A stretch of DNA of 38,655 bases from an uncultured Eubacteriales bacterium. Lineage in GTDB: Bacteria; Bacillota; Clostridia; Christensenellales; Aristaeellaceae. The position numbers and the translations under genes were made by a program. A model generated the notes under the pieces. The model did not search any database, was not told the DNA's origin, and worked only from the letters and a program-made list of their open reading frames with translations. The stretch spans positions 1 to 38,655 of the forward strand of contig CADASI010000063.1 in assembly GCA_902790525.1 (NCBI GenBank), in the 5' to 3' direction. Below, in pieces: positions 15,660 through 29,503 of the stretch (the stretch's first letter is position 1; every line of letters starts with the position of its first letter).

Positions 15660-16346
15660 TCAGGTATGCCTGATCACTTCAAAGCGCTGCAAATCGACCT
15701 TCTCCCCGGGCGCTATGCCCGCCTTCTGTCGGGCGATCTCCACCTGCTGGCGCACCGTGTCCACGCCCTCCAGGTCCGGCAGCAGCAGCCCGCGGCGATG
15801 GCCCCGGCTGACGATCACGCCGTAGCGCTTCACGTTAAGCTCCGCCTCGGAGGCGACAGGCTCCGGTTCTCCCAGCACGTCCACGCTGATCTCCAGCCAT
15901 TTGAGCTCGTCGGGCTGTATGGGGTCGAAGCGGGGGTCGCGGCTGCACGCTGAGATGGCGTTTTGTATGATCTCCTCCGCCAGACTGGGCTGGGTGGGCG
16001 ATATGGTGCCGATGCAGCCCCGCAGGCGCCCCTGCTTGTGGATGGACACGAACGCCCCGGCGCGCTTTCCTGTCAGCGCCTCCGGCAGGCCCTCGGGGAC
16101 GCCGATGCGCCTGCGGTCCGTGACCCAGTTCTCCACCGACTGCCACGCCAGCTTGGCCCACGGGTCGCACTTTTCGCGGGCCTCGTCGAACCGCTGCGCC
16201 TGCGCGGCCTGCCGGAGGTCGAGGAACCGGCGGGCGTCGTCCGTGCCCCGCGGGCGGAAGGCGCAGATGCCGTAGCCCACGCCGGTCACGTCCTCGTGGG
16301 AGAATTGCTCCGCCGCCACGTCCACGCCGTCCAGCGCCCCCGCCAT
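15660..16346 (-). CDS. AMMECR1 domain, 3' half of broken Memo-AMMECR1 gene
   Basis: 228 residues from the first ATG after the frame break. Residues 1-35 (MAGALDGVDVAAEQFSHEDVTGVGYGICAF) are the last strand and helix of a Memo/LigB-type domain, not a natural protein start. The AMMECR1 domain follows: AGAFVSIHKQGRLRGCIGTISPTQPSLAEEII, RDPRFDPIQPDELKWLEISVDVLGEPEPV, GHRRGLLLPDLEGVDTVRQQVEIA. The domain itself looks complete. No ribosome site precedes the ATG, so expression as a separate protein is uncertain. In related organisms the two domains form a single protein of roughly 460 residues. The gene is 13 nt upstream of the radical SAM partner. Confidence 0.75.
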   Translation of the reverse strand: MAGALDGVDVAAEQFSHEDVTGVGYGICAFRPRGTDDARRFLDLRQAAQAQRFDEAREKCDPWAKLAWQSVENWVTDRRRIGVPEGLPEALTGKRAGAFVSIHKQGRLRGCIGTISPTQPSLAEEIIQNAISACSRDPRFDPIQPDELKWLEISVDVLGEPEPVASEAELNVKRYGVIVSRGHRRGLLLPDLEGVDTVRQQVEIARQKAGIAPGEKVDLQRFEVIRHT

Positions 16347-16926
16347 GATGACCCGGCGCGTAGCCGTAGGGGCCGTAGCTTTGCAGCTTGTGGGACAGGT
16401 CGCCGCTTGCGACGAACACCACCCGGCGGCCGGTCTCCTCCGTCGCCTCCCTTATCAGCTGCCCCAGCCGGTAGTGGTCCTCCAGCGGCAGCCCAGACAG
16501 CCCGACGCGCACCAGCCGGAAGTCCTCGTAATGTTGGCGGATGAAGTACAGCGGGACCATCGTGCCGTGGTCGAGCCCGGGGTCGCGCTGGCCCCGGGTC
16601 CCGGCAGGCAGGCCGCTTGCTATGGCCTTCCGCTCGATGGTCTTGGCCAGCTCGTGGTCGTAGGCCACGTCGAAGCGCACCTGGGGCGCGCGGAACTGCG
16701 AAAAGCTGCCCTGCGCGCCGCGCCCGGGGGAGATGTGAAAGTAGTCCGCGTACATTGTGGCGTGGGGGCTGGAGATGACGATGGTCTCCGGCCTGAGCGC
16801 GGCGATCTCCCGCGCCACCTTCTCGTAGGCCCGGGTCGTCGCCGCGACCTGCGCCTCGCTGCCGCGGCCCACCTCCGGCACGATCATCGGCGGGTGCGGC
16901 ACCATGTATGCAGCGATAATCGGCAT
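16341..16926 (-). pseudogene. Memo-like (LigB-fold) domain, 5' half of broken gene
   Basis: Starts at the ATG at 16926, with AAAGGA 9 nt upstream (an ATG at 16935 abuts the ribosome site). The sequence MPIIAAYMVPHPPMIVPEVGRG, SSPHATMYADYFHI, LDHGTMVPLYFI and VFVASGDLSHKL shows the conserved His and Asp residues of the Memo/class III extradiol-dioxygenase fold. After GPYGYAP the frame shifts: correct homology resumes in another frame at VIMAGALDG, and about 40 residues that normally lie between these motifs are missing. The original frame runs on through meaningless Gly/Arg-rich sequence to about 15835. An out-of-frame deletion of roughly 120 nt at about 16348-16360 explains this; an assembly error is the alternative. 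Confidence 0.75.
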
Positions 16927-17057
16927 GTGAATCATCCTTTCCAGGCACTTTGTGACCTGTTTGTTATTATTCGATCGCTCCGTTAAGCGAGAAATTGTTT
17001 GTTTAGTTAGGATTTAGGAATGAGTAATTAGGAATTATAGAATGCCGGACACCCAGC

Positions 17058-17367: not shown

Positions 17368-17433
17368 TAATTCCTATCTCCTAATTCCTCTTTCGCGCCA
17401 CAAATTACAATATTTCGAACAGTTCCGCCTGTT

Positions 17434-18729
17434 TCAGTAATACACCTTGGCTCTGCCCTTGCCACGGGCGAGCAGCTCCTTCTGTAACCCCATGGCCTCC
17501 CGGGCGACCCCGGCGAAATCCATCTTCAACCGCCCGTCGTATTTCAAAAACTCGCCCGCCACCATGGTGTAGCGCACGTTGGCGCTGCCCGCGGCGTAGA
17601 GTATGGCGGATACGGGGTGGTAGTACGCCATGGTGTCCGGCGTCTGGAGGTCCCAGATCACCAGGTCGGCGGTCGCGCCCTCCTCGATTTTGCCCGTCCC
17701 CGCGCCGAACACGGCGTGCCCGGCCATTAGCCGCTGCCAGACCTCGAGGGCGGGGCGGAGGGTCGCGTCGTTGCGCTCGAACTTCTCCAGCATCGCAAAC
17801 AGCCGGGCCTGCTCCAGCACGTTCACGCTGCCCGAGCTGGCCGCGCCGTCCGTGCCGAAGCTGTAATTGAGCCGGTTCGAACGGTCGAAGAAGCCCCCTC
17901 TGCCGGCGGCGAGGCGCAGGTAGGTCTTGGGGCAGAAGGCAAACCAGGTGTCGTCGCCGATGAGGGCGAGGTCGTTCTCCGTCACCCACAGGCCGTGGGC
18001 CACCAGCACCGGCAGGTCGAAGCCGCCGGCGTCGTGCAGGCGTTGAAAGGGCGTTTTGCCCGTGCGCTCGAGGGACTGCGCCACCTGGAGTTTTGTCTCC
18101 GACAGGTGCAGGTGGATGGGCAGCCCCATGCGCCGCGCCGCGTCCACGATCTCGTGAAGCGTCTCCCCGGGGCAGGTGTAGTCCGAATGGGGGCCGAAGC
18201 GCAGGGTGATCCTCGGGGAATCCGAGCGATGATCCCGTATGAATGCGCCGACCTGCGCGAGCCTGTCGCGGTAGTCGGGGGCCATGCCGAACACCGTCGG
18301 GGCGATGTCCATGCGGATGCCGGCGTCCTTCGCCGCGCGGAGCACCTGTTCCTCGCCGAAGTAGTGGTCGGCCACCGCCGTCACGCCGTTGTTGAGCATC
18401 TCCGCGATGCCCAGCAGCGTGCCCGTGTAGATGTCCCGGTCGGTCATGCGGCTCTCGTAGGGCCAGATCATGTCGTTGAACCAGGTCTCGGCGCTGACGT
18501 CCTCGGCGATGCCCTTGAAGATGTTCATGGCGGTGTGGGCGTGCAGGTTCACGAGCCCCGGGCTCACGAAGTACGACGCGCAGTCGACGGTGTCGGTCGG
18601 AACGACGCCCGGCCGGGGCGTCCCCGATTCGCAGATCTTTGCGATGCGCCCGCCTTCGATGTAGATGTCCCTGTGGGACAGGCATTCCCCGGTGTGCGCG
18701 ATGACGTTGGCGTTGTGCAGCCTGATCAT
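17434..18729 (-). CDS. amidohydrolase, SAH/MTA deaminase-like
   Basis: A metal-dependent cytosolic hydrolase of 431 residues in the TrzA/ATZ/SsnA group (S-adenosylhomocysteine or methylthioadenosine deaminases, chlorohydrolases). The metal-binding motif is NLHAHTAMN (His63, His65), followed by ADHYF, HLHLSETK, LVAHGLWVTENDL and FGTDGAASSGSVN with the metal-binding Asp. The N- and C-terminal beta-sandwich (IYIEGGRIAKI; GTGKIEEGATADLVIWDL) is complete. The start is the ATG at 18729, 5 nt after AGGGA; a longer frame upstream runs across the promoter. It is divergent from the dipeptide ABC operon. The aromatic amine substrate is likely but unproven. Confidence 0.88.
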   Translation of the reverse strand: MIRLHNANVIAHTGECLSHRDIYIEGGRIAKICESGTPRPGVVPTDTVDCASYFVSPGLVNLHAHTAMNIFKGIAEDVSAETWFNDMIWPYESRMTDRDIYTGTLLGIAEMLNNGVTAVADHYFGEEQVLRAAKDAGIRMDIAPTVFGMAPDYRDRLAQVGAFIRDHRSDSPRITLRFGPHSDYTCPGETLHEIVDAARRMGLPIHLHLSETKLQVAQSLERTGKTPFQRLHDAGGFDLPVLVAHGLWVTENDLALIGDDTWFAFCPKTYLRLAAGRGGFFDRSNRLNYSFGTDGAASSGSVNVLEQARLFAMLEKFERNDATLRPALEVWQRLMAGHAVFGAGTGKIEEGATADLVIWDLQTPDTMAYYHPVSAILYAAGSANVRYTMVAGEFLKYDGRLKMDFAGVAREAMGLQKELLARGKGRAKVYY

Positions 18730-18772
18730 GGTATTCCCTCGCTTTTTACGAACATTTTTCGCCTCTGACCCT

Positions 18773-18801
18773 ATTTTACCATATCTTTCGCCGCCGGACA
18801 A
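18773..18801 (-). promoter_or_regulatory. promoter of amidohydrolase gene
   Basis: On the minus strand TTGTCC (18801-18796), 17-nt spacer ending TGG, TAAAAT (18778-18773); 44 nt before the start codon. Confidence 0.7.
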
Positions 18802-18854
18802 CCTGAAAATGCAGCTGTTTACCGTCTGCTTACGGCGTTTCCTCCAAATATGAC

Positions 18855-18883
18855 TTGATTTTTCGCTCAAAATGGTATAGTAT
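18855..18883 (+). promoter_or_regulatory. promoter of dipeptide-type ABC operon
   Basis: TTGATT (18855-18860) with TAGTAT (18878-18883) at 17 nt, overlapping an alternative extended -10 TGGTATAGT (18873-18881). It is divergent from the amidohydrolase promoter. Confidence 0.5.
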
Positions 18884-18944
18884 AGATAGCATTAATGTAC
18901 TATGGCAAAGCGATGGACCGCCGCTTGCCGGATCGGAGAACACC

Positions 18945-19883
18945 GTGGCAAGGTTTGTAATCAAACGACTTCTACAGATGGCGCTGATCGTGTTTCTCGC
19001 CTCCATACTGATATTCGCCATGGTCCGGGTGACGCCCTCGGACCCCATCGCCTCGATGACCAAGGGCAAGCGGATCAGCCAGGAGAGGCGGGAGGCGCTC
19101 GTCAGGCAGTACCATCTCGACAAAACCGTGCCCGAGCAGTACGTGATATGGATCACCGGCGCGCTGCGCGGCGACCTGGGCAACAGCTACGGCAAGAAGC
19201 AGCCGGTCACGGACATCATCGCCAGCCGCCTGCCCACCACGCTGCAGATCGTGCTGATGAGCGCCGTGATGGCCATCGCGCTGTCGATCCCCATCGGCAT
19301 CATCTGCGCCGTGAAGATGAACACACTGATCGACCGCCTGCTGTCCACGCTGACCCTGATACTGGTGGCTTCGCCGGTGTTTCTGACGGCCATCGTGCTG
19401 ATGCTGGTATTTGCGCTGAAGCTTCGATGGTTTCCGTCCTTCGGCGCGGGCAAGACCTTCGCCGAGAACCTGTACTATCTGTTCCTGCCCTCGCTGGCGC
19501 TGAGCCTGAGCATGGTGGCGCTGATCGCCCGCATCACCCGCAGCAACATGATCGAGCAGCTCAACGCGCCCTACGCCACCACCGCCGTCGCCAAGGGCAT
19601 CCCGTACCGGACGGTGGTGATGAAGCACTGCTTCAAGAACACCGTCATCCCCGTGGTAACCGTGGCCAGTTTGCAGATCGGCACGATGATCGTCGGCGCG
19701 GTGCTGGTGGAGAACGTTTTCGCGCTGGGCGGCATCGGCGACGTGCTGATCTCCGCCATCAAGGCGTCGGACTACCCCGTGGTGCAGGGCATCACGCTTC
19801 TGCTGGTGACGGTGTTCGCGCTGATCAACCTGCTGGTGGACATACTCTACGCGGCGATCGACCCGAGGATCCGGCTTGAATAA
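18945..19883 (+). CDS. peptide-type ABC transporter permease (DppB type)
   Basis: A membrane subunit of a DppBCDF/OppBCDF-family importer, 312 residues. It begins ARFVIKRLLQMALIVFLASILIFAMVRVTPSDP, the classic DppB opening. Several membrane segments follow, with the conserved EAA-like region (TRSNMIEQLNAPYATTAVAKGIPYRTVVMKHCFKN) and the C-terminal LLVDILYAAIDPRIRLE. The start is a GTG at 18945, 6 nt after GGAG; a longer frame upstream has no ribosome site and overlaps the promoter. First gene of a five-gene operon. Confidence 0.92.
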   Translation: MARFVIKRLLQMALIVFLASILIFAMVRVTPSDPIASMTKGKRISQERREALVRQYHLDKTVPEQYVIWITGALRGDLGNSYGKKQPVTDIIASRLPTTLQIVLMSAVMAIALSIPIGIICAVKMNTLIDRLLSTLTLILVASPVFLTAIVLMLVFALKLRWFPSFGAGKTFAENLYYLFLPSLALSLSMVALIARITRSNMIEQLNAPYATTAVAKGIPYRTVVMKHCFKNTVIPVVTVASLQIGTMIVGAVLVENVFALGGIGDVLISAIKASDYPVVQGITLLLVTVFALINLLVDILYAAIDPRIRLE

Positions 19884-24790: not shown

Positions 24791-26404
24791 ATGTCAAACA
24801 CGATACTCTACAACGCCAACATCTACACCATGGAGGCTCCGGGCGCGCGGGCGGAGGCCATCGCGATTGCGGGCAACCGCATCGAGGCGGTGGGGCGTCT
24901 CGACACGCTGCTCCCGCTGGCGGACGCGAACACGCGGATGATCGACCTCGGGGGGAAGTGCGTGCTGCCGGGGTTCAACGACACCCACTGTCATGTGGTC
25001 CAGACCGGCATGGAGTCCGTCAAGGTCTGCCTGCGCGGGGTGCGCTCCATCGGGGAACTGGTCGTAAAAATGCGCCGGTTCATCGAGGATCGTCACATCC
25101 CGGACGGCGAATGGGTGGTGGGCTACGGCTACGATCAGCTGCTGTTCGACGAACCCCGGCAACCCAACCGCGATGACCTGGACAAGGTGTCCGCGCGGCA
25201 TCCCCTCATGGTGGACCGCATCTGCGGGCACATCGGCGCGGCGAACTCGCTGGCGCTTGCGCGGGTGGGCTTTGACGCGCACACGGTCATCGAGGGCGAG
25301 GGCGGCATCATGGAGAAGGACGCCTCCGGCAGGCTCACCGGCGTGCTGGTGGAGACGGCCCGCGACGTCATGGCCAACCGCATGCCCAAGCGGGACGCCG
25401 CCGCGCTCGCGCCGCTGATCCGGGGCGTGTTCGAGGAGGCGTCGCGCTACGGGGTCACGTCCATGCAGACCGACGACCTCGAGGCCGCGCCCATCGGGGA
25501 GATCATGGCCGCCTACCGCCGCCTGAAGGACGAGGGCAGCGCCACGGTGCGCATCTGGGAGGAGGTGCAGTGCCCTCGCCCGAGGGCGCTTGAGCAGTTC
25601 CTCGCGCTGGGCCTGCGCACCGGCGACGGCGACGGCTTCTTCAGGATCGGCAACATCAAGATCATCACCGACGGCTCCCTCGGCGCGCGCACGGCCTACA
25701 TGCGCACCGACTACGCAGACGCCCCGGGCGCGCGAGGCGTGGCGGTGTACACCCAGGCAGACCTGGACGACCTGGTCTGTCAGGCGCACCTGGCGGGCAT
25801 GCAGGTGGCCTGCCACGCCATCGGCGACGGGGCCGTCGGGCAGTGCGTGCACGCCATGGCGGCCGCCCGGGCGATGGACGGCGTCGACAGGCGAAACCGC
25901 ATCGTCCACTGCCAGTTCGCCGGGGACGACCTGCTGGACGCGATGGCGCGGGCGGGCATCTGCGCCGACATACAGCCCGCCTTCGTGCCGTCGGACTACG
26001 GCATGGTCGGCGCGCGCATGGGCGCGCGCAGCGGCATCGGCTACCGCTGGAAGACCATGGCCCGGCGCGGCATCCACATGGGCGGCGGCTCCGACAGCCC
26101 GGTGGAGACCTTCAACCCCGTCTGGGGCATACACTGCGCCGTCAACCGGACGGGCCGCGACGGCCTGCCCGAGGGAGGCTGGCGCCCGGAGGAGAAGCTG
26201 AGCGTCTTTGAGGCGGTCAGGCTGTACACCTCGGAGGGGGCCTATCTCACCTTCGAGGAGGCCGACAAGGGCATGCTCAGGCCGGGGATGCTTGCGGACA
26301 TGGCCGTGCTGGACCGGGACATATTCGCCGTGCCGCAGGCGGAAATCATGTCTTTGCGCAACGTGATGACGATCATGGACGGCAATATCGTGTACACCGC
26401 CTGA
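24791..26404 (+). CDS. YtcJ-like amidohydrolase (Amidohydro_3)
   Basis: A 537-residue metal-dependent hydrolase. The metal motif is LPGFNDTHCHVVQTG (His66, His68). Later motifs are NIKIITDGSLGARTAYM, QVACHAIGDGAV, NRIVHCQF, and MGGGSDSPVETFNP with the catalytic Asp, characteristic of the YtcJ group. The C-terminal part returns to the beta-sandwich (LADMAVLDRDIFAVPQAEI). The ribosome site is weak (AAAAGGA, 13 nt away). It lies downstream of the ABC transporter across a repeat island, so the original link to that operon may have been broken by repeat insertion. The substrate is not known for most family members. Confidence 0.88.
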   Translation: MSNTILYNANIYTMEAPGARAEAIAIAGNRIEAVGRLDTLLPLADANTRMIDLGGKCVLPGFNDTHCHVVQTGMESVKVCLRGVRSIGELVVKMRRFIEDRHIPDGEWVVGYGYDQLLFDEPRQPNRDDLDKVSARHPLMVDRICGHIGAANSLALARVGFDAHTVIEGEGGIMEKDASGRLTGVLVETARDVMANRMPKRDAAALAPLIRGVFEEASRYGVTSMQTDDLEAAPIGEIMAAYRRLKDEGSATVRIWEEVQCPRPRALEQFLALGLRTGDGDGFFRIGNIKIITDGSLGARTAYMRTDYADAPGARGVAVYTQADLDDLVCQAHLAGMQVACHAIGDGAVGQCVHAMAAARAMDGVDRRNRIVHCQFAGDDLLDAMARAGICADIQPAFVPSDYGMVGARMGARSGIGYRWKTMARRGIHMGGGSDSPVETFNPVWGIHCAVNRTGRDGLPEGGWRPEEKLSVFEAVRLYTSEGAYLTFEEADKGMLRPGMLADMAVLDRDIFAVPQAEIMSLRNVMTIMDGNIVYTA

Positions 26405-26428
26405 GCATCGGCGGCGATGATATTGTCC

Positions 26429-26457
26429 TTGAAAATCGCGCCGAAATCTGGTAAAAT
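26429..26457 (+). promoter_or_regulatory. promoter of sensor-MscS gene
   Basis: TTGAAA (26429-26434), 17-nt spacer ending TGG, TAAAAT (26452-26457). It has the same architecture as the histidine-kinase promoter at 4935-4963. Confidence 0.75.
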
Positions 26458-26512
26458 CAGGGCATCGGAGGCTGTAGTGCCACGCAGGCGCTGTGCCGAT
26501 GGGAGGTCGAAA

Positions 26513-29503
26513 ATGAAGAAACGGTACGCGATACAGAAGAAGACCGCCGGGGCCATCGCGGTGATGCTGATCTCGATACTGCTCATCACCTTCGCGCTGA
26601 CCGGGCTCGGCATGCGCTTCACGCGCCAACGCGAGGACACCCGGAACCGCATGAAGATCAAGGCCCTCGCGCAGATGCTGACCAACGAAAACGCCATCAA
26701 GGCGGCGGCGGTGCGGACCTACGATGCGCACATCGCCTCGGGCCTGCGGATGATGTGCGACGCCCTCCGCGCGCGCTTCGACGGCGGCCGCTACACCGGC
26801 CCGCAGGTGTTCTCCGACGGGTTCGTCGCGCGGCTTTCGGGGGAGGACGTCATATTCCCGGAGGATTTGCCCTTCGACGGCCTGGCGCTTGACGCCGCGC
26901 AGGTCCGCGACAGCCTCCGCGTGGGCGGGATACGCGCGATGCACGCGCGGATCGACGGCGAATCCTGCTACCTGTCCTTCGGGGACATGGGCAAGGGGTT
27001 CTGCTATGTGGGGATCACGCCGGAATCGGATTATCTTGACTACGTCGGCCTCTACACCGCCCAGATCTACGAGGCGCTGGAGAAGGCCGACAACGTGTTT
27101 GACGGCGCGACCCTCGTGATCGGGGAACAGGACGGGCGTGAGACGCTGCTTCGCACCTACGGGGACATCGACGGGGATGTCACGCTTGCAGACCTTGGGC
27201 TGTCGTCCGGGGCGCTGCCCTCCGGCGATTACGAGGTCACGCTCAAGGGGAGGACGTACACCTGCGCCGTGTTGGAGCCCGAAGCGGAATGGCGCGACCG
27301 CGCGGACGTGACGGTGCTGCAGCTTCTGCCGCTTCACGCCCAGGAGCAGGAGAACCTGCGCGCGGCGCTGTTCATCGCCTTCACTATGGCGCTGATCTTC
27401 ATGACCATCATCACCTACGTGACCTCCGTGCAGCGCTACGTGAAGGAGAACGAGATCACCGGCGACCAGGCGGCGCACTACGCCCCCCGGAAGCTGCGGC
27501 TCAAGCTTATCTGCGCCGGCATCGTCGGCGTGGTGGCCATATTCGCCATCACGCTGGTGGTGCAGGAGGTCAAGGAGCTTTACGTGGAGCTCCGGCACGG
27601 GCGGGACACGTTGAGCCTGCTCTCGAGGCAGCTGGAGCAAATGGATGGCGACAGAGACGACAGCATCGTCCGCGATCACGAGGACTGGTACGTCGGCTAC
27701 GGCCAGCGCATGGCGGAGCTGCTGTCCGAAACCCCGGAGCTTGCCAACCAGGAGATGCTCCAGGCCTTCTGCGACGACCTCAACATCGACTACATCGTGC
27801 TGTTTGACGAGAACGGCAGCCAGGCGGCATGCAGCCGGGACTACTCCGGCCTGACGATGAGCCGCGGCCTCGGGCAGGACGCCGCCGATTTCCAGCGGCT
27901 GCTGCTGGGCGTGCCGTCCATCGTCCACAAGCCCTCCGTGAACTCCGCCACGGGGCTGGAGCGCCAGAGGATCGGCGTGAAAGTGCCCTCCGCCGACGGC
28001 CGGTACGGCGCGCTGGTCATGGCGCTGATGCCGGAGACGACCGGCATCGACGTGGACATCAACGACATCGACCGGCAGATCAGCCTGATCGCCACCGACG
28101 GCATCATGTGCTTCACCGCGAATCAGGACACCGGCGCGATACTCTACGCCAACGACCCGGAGATGGTGGGGGCGAACGTCGTCGAGCGGAACCTGGCCCG
28201 GGACAGCCTGCGGGACGGCTACATGGATTTCGCCTCCCTGAGCGGGGCGCGGCACTTCGTGATCACCGACCGCCTGGACGAGCAGATACTTTACTACGCC
28301 GTGCGTTACAGCGACATCTTCGGCACCGTGATCCGCTACGGGCTCGCGGCGGTGGGGCTGTTCGCGCTGGCGCTGGGGATTTTGATGGTCGTGCTGTTCA
28401 GGGGCTATAACGACGTCGCCTTTTCCGAATGGGCGGTCATCAACGCGCCGGAGGACCCCGACGGCCAAGCCGGGGCGCAGCGCGTGCTCAAGGAATCGAC
28501 CAAGGCGGCGATACGCAGGCGCGTGTGGATGGAGGGACCCGTGGGCGCGGTGTGGCGAAAAATCGTCCGCGCCATCCGGTGGGACGAGCGGCTGCCGGAG
28601 GAGAAGTCCAACGCGGTGTTCCAGTTCAGCCTGTTCTTGCTGATGCTGTTCTGGGCAAACCGGCTGTTCAGCCGGAACCTGTCCCACGACAACTACGACT
28701 CGCTGGCGATGTTCCTGGTGCAGGGCGACTGGATGCGGGGCGCCAACCTGTTCTCGCTGTGCAGTATACTGCTGGTGTCGGGCTACGCCATCATGATCAA
28801 CGTCGTAAGCCGCTTCCTGCTGGGGCTGACCTCGGGCTTTCTGATGCGCAAGGGGCAGACCATCTGCCGCCTGGTGGAGAGCTTCATACGCTACATCTCG
28901 CTGATCGTGGTGCTGTACCTGACCCTCAACTACCTGGGCCTGCCCGTGGGCACGGTGGTGGGGTCGCTGGGCATCGCGTCGCTGGCACTGTCCCTCGGTG
29001 CGAAGGACCTGGCCGCCGACATACTGGCCGGGCTGTTCATCGTATTCGAGCGCACCTTCCAGGTGGGGGACGTGGTGGAGATCAACGGCAAGCACGGCAA
29101 GGTGCAGGAGATCGGCGTGCGCACCACGAAGCTGATGTTGCCGGGCAACAACGTGCAGGTCTTCGGGAACCACTGCATCGAGGAGGTGCTCAACCTGACC
29201 TACAAGCTCTCCTGGTGCAGCATCGAGCTCCGGGTGCCCGCGAAGGAATCACTTCAACATATCGAGGAAGTGCTGAGCCGCGAACTGCCGGAGATCGGCA
29301 AGCGGTGCGACAAGATCGTCGGCGCGATCAACTACGTGGGCGTGACCGAGATCGGCGGCGATGTGGGCACGTACATGGGCGTGCCCACCCGGACGCTGAC
29401 CATCAGCGCGGAATGCCGCGAGGAGGACAAGTATTCGGTCAAGCTCTTCATCAACCGGGAGATCTGCCTGCTCTTCGAGCGGGAGGGGATCGAGCTCTGG
29501 TAG
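26513..29503 (+). CDS. MscS-family channel with two extracytoplasmic sensor regions
   Basis: 996 residues; ATG at 26513, 6 nt after GGGAGG. The C-terminal ~230 residues are an MscS mechanosensitive channel: pore helix VGTVVGSLGIASLALSLGAKDLAADILAGLF, then ERTFQVGDVVEINGKHGKVQEIGVRTTKL (beta domain) and the alpha/beta vestibule. Upstream the protein is unlike standard MscS. It has TM1 (about 12-34), a large outside region (35-281), TM2 (283-304), TM3 (330-352), and a second outside region (353-605). The second region carries Cache-like features (YIVLFDENGSQAACSRDYSGLTMS, then RIGVKVPSADGRYGALVMAL). TM4 (606-630), a cytosolic linker and TMs 5-7 lead into the pore. The arrangement suggests an ion channel gated or tuned by external ligands. 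The MscS part is certain; the sensor assignment is from pattern and topology only. Confidence 0.85.
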   Translation: MKKRYAIQKKTAGAIAVMLISILLITFALTGLGMRFTRQREDTRNRMKIKALAQMLTNENAIKAAAVRTYDAHIASGLRMMCDALRARFDGGRYTGPQVFSDGFVARLSGEDVIFPEDLPFDGLALDAAQVRDSLRVGGIRAMHARIDGESCYLSFGDMGKGFCYVGITPESDYLDYVGLYTAQIYEALEKADNVFDGATLVIGEQDGRETLLRTYGDIDGDVTLADLGLSSGALPSGDYEVTLKGRTYTCAVLEPEAEWRDRADVTVLQLLPLHAQEQENLRAALFIAFTMALIFMTIITYVTSVQRYVKENEITGDQAAHYAPRKLRLKLICAGIVGVVAIFAITLVVQEVKELYVELRHGRDTLSLLSRQLEQMDGDRDDSIVRDHEDWYVGYGQRMAELLSETPELANQEMLQAFCDDLNIDYIVLFDENGSQAACSRDYSGLTMSRGLGQDAADFQRLLLGVPSIVHKPSVNSATGLERQRIGVKVPSADGRYGALVMALMPETTGIDVDINDIDRQISLIATDGIMCFTANQDTGAILYANDPEMVGANVVERNLARDSLRDGYMDFASLSGARHFVITDRLDEQILYYAVRYSDIFGTVIRYGLAAVGLFALALGILMVVLFRGYNDVAFSEWAVINAPEDPDGQAGAQRVLKESTKAAIRRRVWMEGPVGAVWRKIVRAIRWDERLPEEKSNAVFQFSLFLLMLFWANRLFSRNLSHDNYDSLAMFLVQGDWMRGANLFSLCSILLVSGYAIMINVVSRFLLGLTSGFLMRKGQTICRLVESFIRYISLIVVLYLTLNYLGLPVGTVVGSLGIASLALSLGAKDLAADILAGLFIVFERTFQVGDVVEINGKHGKVQEIGVRTTKLMLPGNNVQVFGNHCIEEVLNLTYKLSWCSIELRVPAKESLQHIEEVLSRELPEIGKRCDKIVGAINYVGVTEIGGDVGTYMGVPTRTLTISAECREEDKYSVKLFINREICLLFEREGIELW

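Follow-up and report, generated by a model that had tools for sequence, protein, structure and literature searches.

An MscS-type channel carrying two Cache-like extracytoplasmic modules in one chain: a candidate receptor-channel of the Aristaeellaceae

Channels of the bCNG type carry their ligand domains in the cytosol. Ligand control of an MscS-type pore has been described for them (PMC4560390), and MscK, a protein of eleven helices in which an MscS core is joined to one large periplasmic domain of ∼500 residues, needs external potassium in addition to tension (PMC9653487). As portrayed in that source, MscK gives control by an external ligand a precedent within the MscS superfamily, one that the original prediction, which cited bCNG, had missed. 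Among prokaryotic extracellular sensors the largest superfamily is Cache; the double Cache domain measures ∼271 residues and fills an extracytoplasmic loop between two helices (PMC4822843). The outputs given in Table 1 of Upadhyay et al. 2016 are kinases, MCPs, c-di-GMP enzymes, cyclases, phosphatases, transcription factors and calcium-channel subunits: the table does not include MscS, and a channel could have escaped the survey because it began from proteins with known signalling outputs (PMC4822843). The calcium-channel case concerns the alpha2-delta subunits of animal voltage-gated channels, which carry a Cache domain (PMC4822843); alpha2-delta is described as an auxiliary subunit (PMC9016415). 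A 2025 study of gut receptors names, in the sections drawn on here, three receptor classes with no channel among them (PMC12415202). No report of a Cache–MscS fusion was found in the open-access literature, where absence is not proof.

Here we describe a gene in a stretch of 38,655 nucleotides (hereafter the window; contig CADASI010000063.1 of assembly GCA_902790525.1, from an uncultured Eubacteriales gut bacterium of the family Aristaeellaceae) that joins two Cache-like modules to one pore. With MscS its product shares the pore helices, beta domain and vestibule, but it has ∼740 extra N-terminal residues containing two outer modules and five extra helices, and it reaches none of the NCBIfam MscS equivalog cut-offs. 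The likeness to MscK lies in an MscS core with a large N-terminal outside part; in contrast to MscK, the window protein carries a pair of Cache-like modules, each set between helices, and membership of the MscK family was rejected (22.7 bits with the NCBIfam MscK model against a cut-off of 991, and about eight helices against eleven). Putative ligand control of an MscS-type pore is shared with bCNG, whereas the sensors of the window protein are predicted outside; bCNG membership was likewise rejected, no cyclic-nucleotide-binding Pfam family being found up to E = 1. Double-Cache (dCache) receptors possess the same ∼250-residue extracytoplasmic module, matched directly by a profile of the second module (D2), but here it occurs twice and feeds a channel pore as its putative output. 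Finally, where alpha2-delta places Cache on an auxiliary subunit, the window protein has Cache-like modules within the pore-forming chain. The dependence of MscK on external potassium and the Cache domains of calcium-channel subunits are partial precedents for Cache modules within an MscS chain.

Layout of the gene and its pore

The gene is an open reading frame of 996 codons, followed by three bases of stop. Its features are as follows.

26429-26457, plus strand: sigma-70-like promoter match, 10/12, with TG ahead of the second hexamer (not above chance, not kept in L007)
26501-26507, plus strand: Shine-Dalgarno-like GGGAGGT, 5′ of the ATG (sequence)
26513-29503, plus strand: whole gene, dual-sensor MscS channel (open reading frame, Pfam, alignment of relatives)
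26531-26611, plus strand: TM1, residues 7-33 (hydropathy)
26612-27358, plus strand: D1, first predicted extracytoplasmic module, residues 34-282 (homology to D2; dCache fold matches of a low-confidence model)
27359-27565, plus strand: TM2, short cytosolic loop and TM3, residues 283-351 (hydropathy, charge)
27566-28330, plus strand: D2, second predicted extracytoplasmic module, residues 352-606 (dCache_1 in 8/19 relatives; module on other receptors; fold search)
28331-28408, plus strand: TM4, residues 607-632 (hydropathy)
28409-28612, plus strand: cytosolic linker, residues 633-700 (K+R 12/68)
28613-28672, plus strand: TM5, extra helix ahead of the MscS core, residues 701-720 (hydropathy)
28736-28831, plus strand: first helix of the MscS core, residues 742-773 (PDB sequence search, hydropathy)
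28886-29005, plus strand: pore helices, MS_channel_1st, residues 792-831 (Pfam; gate positions hydrophobic in 19/19)
29006-29170, plus strand: MS_channel_2nd beta domain, residues 832-886 (Pfam)
29171-29500, plus strand: remaining cytosolic vestibule, residues 887-996 (PDB sequence matches to MscS up to residue 985)

A chance reading frame was ruled out by conservation in many genomes: the entire 996-residue protein is conserved at 81% identity in another genome (locus L007), and near end-to-end matches at 26-32% identity occur at L008, L009 and L065. An alternative in-frame ATG lies 96 bases upstream of 26513, and L007 starts at the residue matching 26513. The strong promoter of its own with which the gene had been credited did not hold up: one sigma-70-like site is found between 26000 and 30000, against 0.7 ± 0.7 in shuffles, and since the channel starts 108 nt after the upstream gene in the window and 41 nt after it in L007, the promoter-like site is no conserved feature. 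An antisense frame of 1459 residues (24794-29173, minus strand) spans an amidohydrolase gene and most of the channel gene; we take it for a codon-usage shadow.

Hydropathy places helices in the window protein near residues 6-37, 280-307, 326-358, 601-637 and 701-720, and then from ∼740, about eight in all, with soluble regions at ∼34-282 and ∼352-606 between them. An even helix count is consistent with the MscS orientation. Lysine plus arginine density, counted within segment boundaries chosen by the analyst, is 0.42 at the N-terminus, 0.10 in D1, 0.15 in the loop 309-328, 0.08 in D2, 0.18 in the linker, 0.00 in the loop 722-741 and 0.23 in the loop 774-786. Helix count and charge together argue against a cytosolic placement of D1 and D2 and predict both outside, D1 (249 residues) and D2 (255 residues) each filling the stretch between predicted helices. 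One plan is common by hydropathy to 19 channel frames, the window's included: two outer regions, each flanked by a helix on either side and parted from one another by a short loop, then the cytosolic linker, one further helix and the helices of the MscS core; at L064 and L066 the first helix is absent from frames that are trimmed or cut. The analysis thereby confirmed a single chain composed of two extracytoplasmic modules, a cytosolic linker, an extra helix and an MscS pore, and the two membrane-anchored outside regions of ∼250 residues, which the original prediction had placed at nearly the same residues, stand as proposed.

The pore and vestibule that had been read into the C-terminus are supported as well. 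Pfam MS_channel_1st (PF21088) matches residues 792-831 with 29.5 bits (cut-off 23.1) and MS_channel_2nd (PF00924) residues 832-886 with 48.8 bits (cut-off 20.2), while PDB sequence searches match MscS structures over residues 778-985; no further Pfam family was found in the window protein up to E = 1. Positions 824 and 828, which from an alignment by eye we take to be equivalent to the gate leucines of E. coli MscS, are hydrophobic in all 19 channel frames. As judged from these alignments, then, the pore retains MscS features, including hydrophobic residues at the gate positions. This conservation bears on the notion that the pore is non-conducting and serves as a scaffold through which the sensors signal to partners in the cytosol. 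L064 and L070, two relatives whose vestibule is shortened, would fit such a role, but the pore helices are the most conserved part of the protein (mean pairwise identity 0.417), the gate is hydrophobic throughout, and in the window protein Pfam reveals no output domain on the cytosolic side; we consider a scaffold highly improbable.

The two outer modules

From an alignment of 19 proteins the D1 and D2 regions were excised and their profiles compared. D1 and D2 match one another with a probability of 99.5% over 234 columns, at 9% identity; a rerun gave 99.0%, against 0.4% for the best of 30 column shuffles and 0.1% for a reversed alignment, and comparisons of D1, D2 and the dCache set with the channel part gave at most 0.3%. 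D1 and D2 are, on this profile evidence, homologous modules, each lying between two helices and predicted outside.

Their likeness to Cache is fainter at the level of any single comparison. Against seven dCache regions of the window's own genome D2 scores 48.8% and D1 37.2%, values that are weak and above the controls; a rerun against same-genome dCache regions gave 44.6% for D2 and 16.0% for D1, with shuffle maxima of 1.4% and 0.1%, respectively. Pfam dCache_1 is found in nine of the 19 channel relatives (best E 9.3e-6, every match under the 45-bit cut-off), in D2 in eight of them and in D1 in one (L013), and other Cache models match D1 weakly in L013, L014, L062(-) and L069 (E 0.03-0.11). 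Neither the window protein nor L007 matches any Cache model of Pfam. In PDB sequence profile searches dCache entries rank first, at values that are not significant (E 0.033 for D2, 0.058 for D1) and with unrelated entries directly beneath them. Structure models of the two modules, built from two sequences each, reached pLDDT values of 51.2 and 44.1. In PDB fold searches with these low-confidence models dCache-type sensors come out at the top: all 13 matches of D2 at E ≤ 0.001 fall to extracytoplasmic sensors or to periplasmic domains (TM-scores 0.23-0.35), and the best ten matches of D1 are chemoreceptor entries (TM-scores 0.18-0.22). Structural comparison with dCache domains, to which the original prediction had looked, therefore points the expected way through models that are themselves of low confidence. 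The Cache-like character that had been ascribed to the second region is nevertheless borne out and extends to the first: that both modules are Cache-type, like the sensors of double-Cache chemoreceptors, is well supported. The motif R-x-W-Y is part of the amino-acid dCache signature. It is absent from D1 and D2, and hence we propose no ligand class.

The strongest evidence for a sensor identity is the modularity of D2. Profile matches to D2 occur in 19 of 398 genomes of the phylum, the window's own included, and in 44 of the 239 genomes of the family sample. The loci examined contain 51 distinct frames that combine D2 with a channel and 39 with D2 and no channel, of which four (L104, L127, L149 and L169) are, in the analyst's reading, cut or broken channel genes. 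All 35 single-sensor D2 relatives that were scanned carry a known signalling output:

MCP with a D2-type module, 16: L085, L087-L097, L100, L103, L105, L106
GGDEF or GGDEF-EAL with a D2-type module, 12: L005, L086, L098, L101, L174-L181
SpoIIE with a D2-type module, 7: L108, L182-L187

A curated Cache-clan cut-off is passed, by a match overlapping that of D2, in seven of the 35 (L088, L098, L100, L101, L103, L105 and L106). By these domain assignments the D2 family sits elsewhere on chemotaxis receptors, c-di-GMP enzymes and SpoIIE phosphatases. In three of the SpoIIE proteins (L108, L184 and L187) a 5TMR_LYT membrane part precedes the D2-type module. The window's own genome encodes a GGDEF protein with a D2-type module (L005, G000:C128, a frame of 654 residues); one sensor type may thus feed both c-di-GMP and a channel within one cell.

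Sensors and pore have diverged to different degrees. Mean pairwise identity is 0.155 for D1, 0.220 for D2 and 0.394 for the beta domain and vestibule, the last close to the figure for the pore given above. Distances in D1 and D2 correlate at 0.90 and each correlates with the channel at 0.68-0.69, none of these values being reached in 2000 permutations. The pattern fits diversified inputs on one output, with D1 and D2 acting as a unit; rate effects could also produce it.

These data weigh on a rival account, by which the protein is mainly an osmotic safety valve whose outer modules adjust its tension sensitivity, respond to ions or to the cell wall, or stabilise assembly, with no specific signal molecule. 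The pore is a relative of MscS by Pfam and PDB matches, and MscK, with its large periplasmic domain on an MscS core and its need of tension plus external potassium (PMC9653487), offers a model for such a valve. However, D2-type modules occur on signalling receptors in every single-sensor relative scanned, divergence has been more rapid in D1 and D2 than in the pore, and a plain MscS of 287 residues in the window's genome could itself be the valve. We think the osmotic account rather unlikely.

Distribution and gene neighbourhood

Whole-genome searches were confined to one phylum. In the family sample (239 genomes of completeness at least 80%) an open frame with D1, D2 and channel matches is present in 28 genomes (26 via loci L126-L153, plus the window's genome and G040 with L015), and broken or cut dual-sensor copies were found in G005, G007, G030 and G889. 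The D1 model also matches 44 of the 51 frames with D2 and a channel (loci L126-L193, some genes being counted twice), one of the remaining seven, L149, being a broken piece. Five dual-sensor channels are present in G112 and four each in G891, G895 and G897; beside its plain MscS the window's genome carries three, of which one is truncated at a contig end. The architecture, for which a search in other Clostridia had been suggested, thus recurs in related genomes. Outside the family it is met with rarely: in a sample of 297 genomes of the order it occurs in G335 and G158, which belong to other families. The full profile at E ≤ 1e-60 matches 15 of 199 genomes of the phylum, G783 along its length and 14 in the channel part only. 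Viral contigs scanned with two proteins yielded no relative. Plasmid records gave 33 matches, none covering 80% of the query, and the ten listed covered the channel part only.

At L062 (G112:C44) two dual-sensor channel genes adjoin on opposite strands. Homologues at L012 (G005), L016 (G007) and L017 (G002) each contain one in-frame stop and are either broken genes or assembly errors. The order also has short channels, 30-40% identical to the pore. Those at L039-L061, mostly frames of ∼320-380 residues, resemble the window's pore (about 31-38%) more closely than do several of the dual-sensor channels, and in some of them the core is preceded by an extra helix. No sensor lies in or beside these genes within the locus stretch examined. 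A split system, in which a separate sensor gene would serve a short channel, was rejected: within the stretch examined 41 of 44 channel loci have no D1 or D2 match, and at the remaining three (L023, L024 and L029) the locus end truncates a dual-sensor gene.

Upstream of the channel the window contains genes for an oligopeptide-type ABC transporter and one of the Amidohydro_3 family. Beside the transporter genes (17408-19876) are frames of 426 and 325 residues with no Pfam match at E ≤ 1e-5, and a LigB-family frame lies at 15838-16935. The transporter and Amidohydro_3 genes would fit ligand-controlled metabolite export, the sensors reporting an outside concentration and the pore releasing a solute, with no ion-signalling receptor involved. 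Genes for a binding protein, the amidohydrolase and the channel follow one another in L007 as well, but in L007 alone of 16 loci: this order was not seen in the 15 others, some of them short or cut by contig ends. As a clue to the ligand the neighbourhood fails, being kept only in a close relative, and we judge export quite improbable.

Proposed gating and its meaning

We favour, as the probable function, a receptor-channel, in which two tandem double-Cache-like outer sensors would set or bias the opening of an MscS-type pore. Its architecture, as predicted, is well supported; ligand, gating and conduction are what we infer. A small molecule outside the cell would bind D2, and perhaps D1, and shift TM4, as is thought to happen for Cache sensors in receptors. 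The shift would travel along the cytosolic linker and TM5 and so reach the MscS helices, with the result that the pore opens or the tension it requires changes. Within a single chain D1 and D2 may form a pair, replacing the usual Cache dimer, an arrangement compatible with a pore of seven subunits. The result would be a flow of ions or small solutes with no kinase step.

For a broader proposal we hold the balance to be even: that these proteins are bacterial ligand-gated channels of a class not described before, whose tandem double-Cache modules pair within the chain and directly gate an MscS pore, and that in some gut bacteria they have been multiplied into several receptor-channels with different inputs.

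Since D2-type modules are also found on chemotaxis receptors and cyclases, existing screens for Cache ligands are directly applicable, and the several diverged copies per genome form a test set for one sensor type driving different outputs. Ligand responses of other gut sensory domains have been tested by FRET in fusions to the Tar signalling part (PMC11237719). If ligand binding opens the pore, a single protein would let these bacteria convert an outside chemical into a flux of ions or solutes, with a logic like that of animal ligand-gated channels, and Cache would gain a further output beside chemotaxis, phosphorylation and second messengers.
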